Below are positions 22,365 through 22,644 of a stretch of DNA of 64,000 bases, piece by piece. This DNA comes from Gottschalkiaceae bacterium SANA (GTDB lineage: Bacteria; Bacillota; Clostridia; Tissierellales; GPF-1). Position 1 is the first letter of the stretch. Each line of letters starts with the position of its first letter. The position numbers and the translations under genes are program-made. The DNA lies in NCBI GenBank assembly GCA_036323355.1, contig AP028876.1, forward strand, positions 1,116,001 through 1,180,000, read 5' to 3'. The notes below the pieces were generated by a model. That model worked only from the letters and a program-made list of their open reading frames with translations, searched no databases and was not told the origin of the DNA.

Positions 22365-22386
22365 GTGTGTTGCCCTCCTTATAAAA

Positions 22387-22412
22387 ATACGCCGTGGAAA
22401 TCCACGGCGTAT
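22387..22412 (-). terminator. Second leader hairpin adjoining the MFS ribosome site
   Basis: ATACGCCGTGGA and TCCACGGCGTAT form a perfect 12-bp inverted repeat around AA. On the minus strand it is followed by TTTTTAT and then at once by AAGGAGGG. It could act as a terminator or hold the ribosome site apart. Confidence 0.65.
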
Positions 22413-22432
22413 CAAATCTATCAATAAGAAAT

Positions 22433-22460
22433 AAAAAAACGCAGACTGAAGATGTCTGCG
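22433..22460 (-). terminator. Leader terminator upstream of the MFS gene
   Basis: On the minus strand CGCAGAC and GTCTGCG form a 7-bp stem with a seven-base loop, followed by seven T. It lies between promoter and gene. Its 5' arm can instead pair with a stretch of the leader ORF (22528-22534). Confidence 0.75.
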
Positions 22461-22501
22461 GGACGAAGTTTATATAAGCTGAAATAAGCCTGAAAAGGCT
22501 A

Positions 22502-22582
22502 TCAATAAAGAGTCATCGATGAGGCATGCAGACAAGAAACTATGAAAATGTGATGAATGTTTTTTATGCTGCTCCCTAGCAT
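22502..22582 (-). CDS. Putative leader peptide of an attenuator
   Basis: A 26-codon ORF starts at ATG 22582, nine bases after AGGAG, and ends with TGA at 22502-22504. The product begins MLGSSIKNIHHIF. It lies directly downstream of a good promoter and upstream of two terminator-like hairpins and the MFS exporter gene. Codons 17-19 contain TGTCTGC, complementary over seven bases to the 5' arm of the leader terminator. This is the layout of a ribosome-stalling leader that controls a resistance gene. Function is inferred from architecture. Confidence 0.6.
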   Translation of the reverse strand: MLGSSIKNIHHIFIVSCLHASSMTLY

Positions 22583-22615
22583 CGCGCATCGCTCCTTTTT
22601 TGTAAATCTTCTCTT

Positions 22616-22644
22616 ATACTATGTGAAGATCCATTTATTGTCAA
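22616..22644 (-). promoter_or_regulatory. Promoter of the MFS leader
   Basis: On the minus strand TTGACA (22644-22639) and TAGTAT (22621-22616) are separated by 17 bases, just upstream of the leader ORF. Confidence 0.72.

Follow-up and report, generated by a model that had tools for sequence, protein, structure and literature searches.

A predicted ribosome-mediated attenuator upstream of a putative MFS exporter gene in Gottschalkiaceae bacterium SANA

Does the short translated leader in front of a clostridial MFS gene decide whether the gene is transcribed? We analysed a 64,000-nucleotide stretch of the Gottschalkiaceae bacterium SANA genome (contig AP028876.1, positions 1,116,001 to 1,180,000; the window), in which an original prediction had placed, on the minus strand 5′ of the gene, a promoter, an AGGAG site, a 26-codon ORF, a terminator (T1) and the exporter ribosome-binding site (RBS). 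All of these were found at their claimed places (Table 1). The second hairpin (T2) is likewise present, but its stem is not the perfect 12 bp first described, as one pair is G–U and 11 are Watson–Crick. A short ORF led by a Shine–Dalgarno (SD) sequence is thereby found 5′ of an intrinsic terminator within one leader, as in ribosome-mediated attenuators; T1 begins ~40 nt past the ORF stop, and the leader RNA fold beats 200 dinucleotide shuffles (z = −3.6). A promoter scan of the region gave 7 promoter-like sites in comparison with 3.9 in shuffled sequences, and the TTGACA/TAGTAT pair is thus by itself weak evidence. An overlapping ORF of 39 aa (ATG 22589) was rejected, as its SD is only 2 nt away and its start codon is missing in a relative (L006, below), making the 26-codon ORF the right one.

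Table 1. Features of the MFS gene and its leader (positions in the window)
Feature	Positions	Strand	Details
Sigma-70-type promoter TTGACA-17-TAGTAT	22616..22644	minus	−35 at 22644-22639, −10 at 22621-22616; 10/12 matches
Shine–Dalgarno AGGAG of leader ORF	22592..22596	minus	9 nt spacing to ATG 22582
Leader ORF, 26 codons, MLGSSIKNIHHIFIVSCLHASSMTLY	22502..22582	minus	ORF listing and translation
Segment 1 TGTCTGC, codons 17-19, antiterminator 5′ strand	22528..22534	minus	pairing and folding tests
Terminator T1	22433..22460	minus	stem-loop 22460-22440 (5′ arm GCAGACA 22459-22453), seven-T U-tract 22439-22433
Hairpin T2	22386..22413	minus	11 Watson–Crick pairs and 1 G–U, loop ATTT, short U-tract
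RBS of MFS gene, AAGGAGGG	22373..22380	minus	read from sequence; kept in L005 and L006
MFS transporter, 418 aa	21108..22364	minus	MFS_1 169 bits; start 22364

The protein behind the leader is plausibly a drug exporter, judging by its nearest matches. Among curated families these are Tet(A/B/C)-type and other exporters, with scores far under the NCBIfam cut-offs, and among solved structures LmrP and NorA, at the weak similarity of E about 1e-7. A search of a plasmid collection returned MFS proteins at 35% identity or less and no named resistance gene. The divergent neighbour is a 770-aa ORF that we take to encode a Tex-like protein.

The core of the proposed switch is the complementarity of segment 1 to the T1 5′ arm over seven bases, for which comparison with shuffled sequences gave p = 0.024, or 0.002 for a slightly different region. 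The antiterminator and T1 share that arm and are mutually exclusive. To see the effect of translation, we masked the ribosome footprint and folded partial transcripts that stop right ahead of the T1 3′ arm. For the window leader, this gave an antiterminator probability of 0.002 without a ribosome, 0.97 with the ribosome at codons 1-2, 0.90-0.91 at codons 3-6, 0.76 at codon 7 and 0.62 at codon 8; from codon 9 onward it was at most 0.05. The same computation for two same-genus relatives gave 0.035 ribosome-free, 0.89 at codon 1 and about 0.9 over codons 1-3 in L006, and 0.000 ribosome-free, 0.97 at codon 1 and at least 0.95 over codons 1-2 in L005. A ribosome at codon 1 brought the antiterminator to at least 0.89 in all seven leaders tested, and none of 300 whole-leader shuffles matched the switch difference in any of the three genomes. 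The claim that an early-stalled ribosome frees TGTCTGC to block T1 is borne out in these computations, with 0.97 at codons 1-2 against 0.002 in the ribosome-free state and a difference beyond that of shuffles in three genomes. The hiding of segment 1 in the resting state was assessed by shuffling only the part 5′ of it (p = 0.003, 0.06 and 0.003 across the three genomes); as a simple duplex, the pairing that hides it in the window was not significant (p = 0.69), whereas the partition-function test was.

The ribosome position decides the state in silico in partial transcripts only, and its effect disappears when the complete T1 is folded at equilibrium. In the window, T1 then had a probability of at least 0.95 at every ribosome position, which makes this computation uninformative as a test of the switch, and antitermination must therefore be kinetic. 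A win of T1 at full-length equilibrium is what one would expect of a kinetic decision.

The relatives also show what evolution has kept. The identity of their exporters to that of the window is 94% in L006 and 76% in L005. The promoter, SD, 27-codon ORF, T1, T2 and RBS are all kept in both, with the leader SD at the same place, the promoter spacing at 17 nt and the boxes near consensus (11/12 in L006, 10/12 in L005). The start of the divergent 770-aa ORF gene is at the same place as well. Segment 1 is found in all three genomes and ends at ORF nucleotide 56 in the window, 59 in L006 and 56 in L005. The encoded peptide fares differently: that of L006 is akin to the window's, with 8 nonsynonymous codon changes and 1 synonymous, while that of L005 is unrelated. 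The expectation that the ORF and the TGTCTGC pairing would be conserved in relatives thus holds, the peptide itself not being kept, and the pattern across the three genomes of the genus is, on the evidence of their sequences, one of selection on frame and fold and not on the peptide.

We consider, with a probability of roughly 0.78, that the leader controls the MFS exporter gene by ribosome-mediated transcription attenuation. What happens in the cell (premature termination, its kinetic control, the inducer and drug export by the product) we infer, and the steps would be as follows. Two states are expected in unstressed cells. With no ribosome on the leader, its 5′ half would pair with segment 1 and T1 would form. 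Ribosomes running through the ORF would cover segment 1, and T1 would again form, so that in either state most transcripts end there. Arrest of a ribosome on the start codon or within the next few codons would free segment 1, which could take the T1 5′ arm on its emergence and let RNA polymerase read on. As the antiterminator depends on ribosome position, the predicted signal is a ribosome held at the start and not at an internal motif; as conservation extends to the frame and not to the peptide, any start-arresting agent is a likely signal, such as those of lincosamide, pleuromutilin or tetracycline type that arrest ribosomes at or just after initiation.

The distribution of the arrangement also bears on this. 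Applying one rule set to a background of the window and 15 sampled genome stretches (about 350 kb), we found that 2 of 112 spaced genes, the MFS gene among them, are preceded by an SD-led upstream ORF (uORF) and then a terminator. Among exporter homologues the same order was present in 14 of 21 at 46% identity or above, 1 of 10 at 40-46% and none of 15 below that, the last group including three paralogues from the window genome; the remaining 7 of the 21 close homologues lack it. On a tree of the MFS proteins, all 16 attenuator-bearing rows fall inside one group of 25 rows (branch support 94/88), and the attenuator label requires 5 changes in comparison with 13.4 in shuffles. Across families, repeated gain of such leaders rather than orthology is possible.

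The peptide and the position dependence bear on two alternatives in which the ribosome reads a specific signal inside the ORF. The arrest motif of ErmCL is IFVIS, and the window leader peptide contains HHIFIVS, so a macrolide-bound ribosome could be imagined to arrest at the resembling IFIVS. We nevertheless regard such ErmC-like control as very unlikely: L006 has HHSFIDS in its place and L005 nothing similar, leaving the motif unconserved, the codon changes against L006 are mostly nonsynonymous (8 against 1), and with the ribosome at codons 13-16 segment 1 is covered and the antiterminator has a probability of 0.00. The adjacent His codons 10-11, with a third His at codon 19, could similarly suggest an amino-acid-starvation attenuator that senses histidine. 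That is less probable still, since a ribosome at codons 10-11 brings the antiterminator to only 0.02-0.05, the L005 leader is without any His, and the gene behind the leader encodes an exporter-like MFS protein rather than a biosynthetic enzyme or a known uptake protein. In the folding model, the gene would stay off if the ribosome were arrested at the IFIV or His codons, and we favour stalling close to the start, of the VmlR kind, over peptide-specific stalling and histidine sensing.

Other explanations do without a ribosome signal. T1 and T2 might simply insulate the gene or lower its expression by constitutive premature termination, with the ORF and the pairing incidental; T1 winning at equilibrium in every state and the lack of a T2 antiterminator in the window would fit this. 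We find it unlikely, if less so than the readings above, as the arrangement is rare in the genome and concentrated in one MFS clade, the ORF is kept despite the divergence of its peptide, and the switch behaviour exceeds that of shuffles in three genomes. A structured leader with terminators 5′ of a transporter gene could also be a ligand riboswitch, a T-box or a protein-dependent attenuator, to which we give hardly any weight: a well-spaced ORF is kept, the switch is tied to ribosome position, and an Rfam search with the window leader and 16 related loci found no family at gathering score, the best being GcvB at 31.7 bits in comparison with a cut-off of 42. On sequence grounds, then, the window leader is outside the ErmCL group and outside every Rfam family. 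A candidate trans target was rejected separately: a 30-nt stretch of the leader (window 22562-22533) has a 93% match at L069 2509-2538 in the same genome, antisense to an aminotransferase-like gene, and was treated as chance because it lies within a coding gene and is eroded in the relative G002.

Returning to the attenuator and its second hairpin, T2 has a moderate U-tract of four or five U and is absent from the terminator-scan output for the window, while the same hairpin is scored as a terminator in L006. The alignment of the two shows two compensatory pair changes (T–A → C–G and G–C → A–T). When the T1 arm is masked, folding of the window gives T2 a probability of 0.97. The hairpin is probably another terminator, which would reduce leak. 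An antiterminator for it was sought in the window and none was evident, the best candidate having 4 pairs (p = 0.40), so that, should T2 be an efficient terminator, full readthrough would have no explanation; the window T2 would be either a poor terminator or a ceiling on expression. One could picture the MFS clade as carrying a distinct domino attenuator with a peptide-independent leader: segment 1, freed by a ribosome stalled at the start, would capture the 5′ arm of T1, and the 3′ arm of T1 thus released would capture the 5′ arm of T2, a single ribosome disarming the two terminators one after the other. This we hold to be doubtful; the chain of T1 3′ arm and T2 5′ arm is visible in L005 and in the class relatives, but amounts to only four pairs in the window.

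Among these class relatives, the family f39 shows three pairings: an SD-adjacent GGTCGY with the 3′ portion of the uORF, that uORF stretch with the 5′ arm of T1, and the 3′ arm of T1 with the 5′ arm of T2. Combined over all leaders, the p values were 1e-11 for GGTCGY–uORF, 9e-14 for uORF–T1 5′ arm and 6e-7 for T1 3′–T2 5′ arm, figures that are overstated as the arms were picked by eye and related leaders were counted as independent. Over the five leaders outside f39, p was 0.011 for GGTCGY–uORF and 0.0005 for uORF–T1, and for T1–T2, computed over three, 0.13. The uORF–T1 pairing covaries in the class relatives, with compensatory changes at 7 of 10 pairs and none of 500 shuffles reaching its score, in a register set by hand on conserved CCT/GGG cores. 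Three leaders (L056, L057 and L009) form the antiterminator with no ribosome present, and the resting state thus differs between lineages; what the lineages share is that the antiterminator is permitted by a ribosome at codon 1 and forbidden by one over segment 1.

Leaders with a short ORF were also seen in other settings. In an f39 genome (G479), a leader of the kind described above (GGTCGTGA ... ATCACGACC, with uORF, T1 and T2) is present on the minus strand of L089 (1397-1690) before a 92-aa ORF without a Pfam match, and the leader module is therefore not tied to the exporter alone. Tandem MFS homologues of the family f17 (L010 about 1400-1490, L012 about 1384-1444 and L040 about 1384-1444) have an SD-led ORF of 19-24 codons directly 5′ of the gene (MLKTRTETKTINLEEKQFT, MLKLRTESKITNLEENQFT, MLIDLYRNKMIINYKNKGIFYSNT), and no terminator lies between the short ORF and the MFS gene in these three loci, which suggests translational and not transcriptional attenuation. 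On the minus strand of L036, 5′ of an MFS gene, the 3′ end of the uORF (AACCTGTG) is perfectly complementary to CACAGGTT, which sits just before the exporter SD, and their pairing encloses the terminator; this could be a switch at the level of translation.

If the leader works in the way inferred, a clostridial intrinsic exporter would stay silent until ribosomes are blocked, an inducible trait that would be missed by standard susceptibility tests and by sequence-based resistance catalogues. No Rfam family covers the leader, and the exporter scores well under the curated resistance models that were searched. The drift of the peptide with kept frame and pairings would also offer a natural test of whether simultaneous sensing of several drug classes commonly relies on start-codon stalling rather than on nascent-peptide arrest.

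Several known systems share parts of this design. The BmrB leader of bmrCD in Bacillus subtilis also has a translated leader ORF, a terminator and antiterminator and a predicted anti-antiterminator; its target is a multidrug exporter, comparable with the putative exporter here, and in its published model, as in the window leader, the antiterminator is energetically weaker than the terminator (PMC4191407). BmrB, however, has 53 codons, its terminator lies within the ORF and its target is an ABC transporter (PMC4191407), whereas the window leader has 26 codons, T1 past the stop, T2 next to it and an MFS target. In mef(E)/mel of Streptococcus pneumoniae, transcription of an efflux gene is similarly attenuated via an intrinsic terminator and a leader ORF that is translated, but macrolide induction needs the 8-codon peptide MTASMRLR and the last hairpin is not terminator-like (PMC4335068), while the window peptide is unconserved and T2 is terminator-like. 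The erm(K) leader of Bacillus licheniformis resembles ours in the two adjacent Rho-independent terminators behind the leader ORF, and differs in its target, an rRNA methylase, and in the peptide MTHSMRLR required for erythromycin induction (PMC4335068). In mechanism, vmlR of B. subtilis is like the proposed switch: its uORF is part of a first stem-loop with the role of anti-antiterminator, and stalling at the start codon lets the antiterminator form ahead of the terminator (PMC9226507). It differs in its three-codon uORF, ABC-F target, extra SD-sequestering hairpin and NusG-dependent pausing (PMC9226507), and we saw by eye no sequence resemblance between the two leaders. Broad sensing by start-codon stalling has precedents in vmlR (PMC9226507) and toiL (PMC12121999), and the window leader, as modelled here, should be a fresh example of the known logic by which translation-blocking antibiotics are sensed, kept across one MFS clade.
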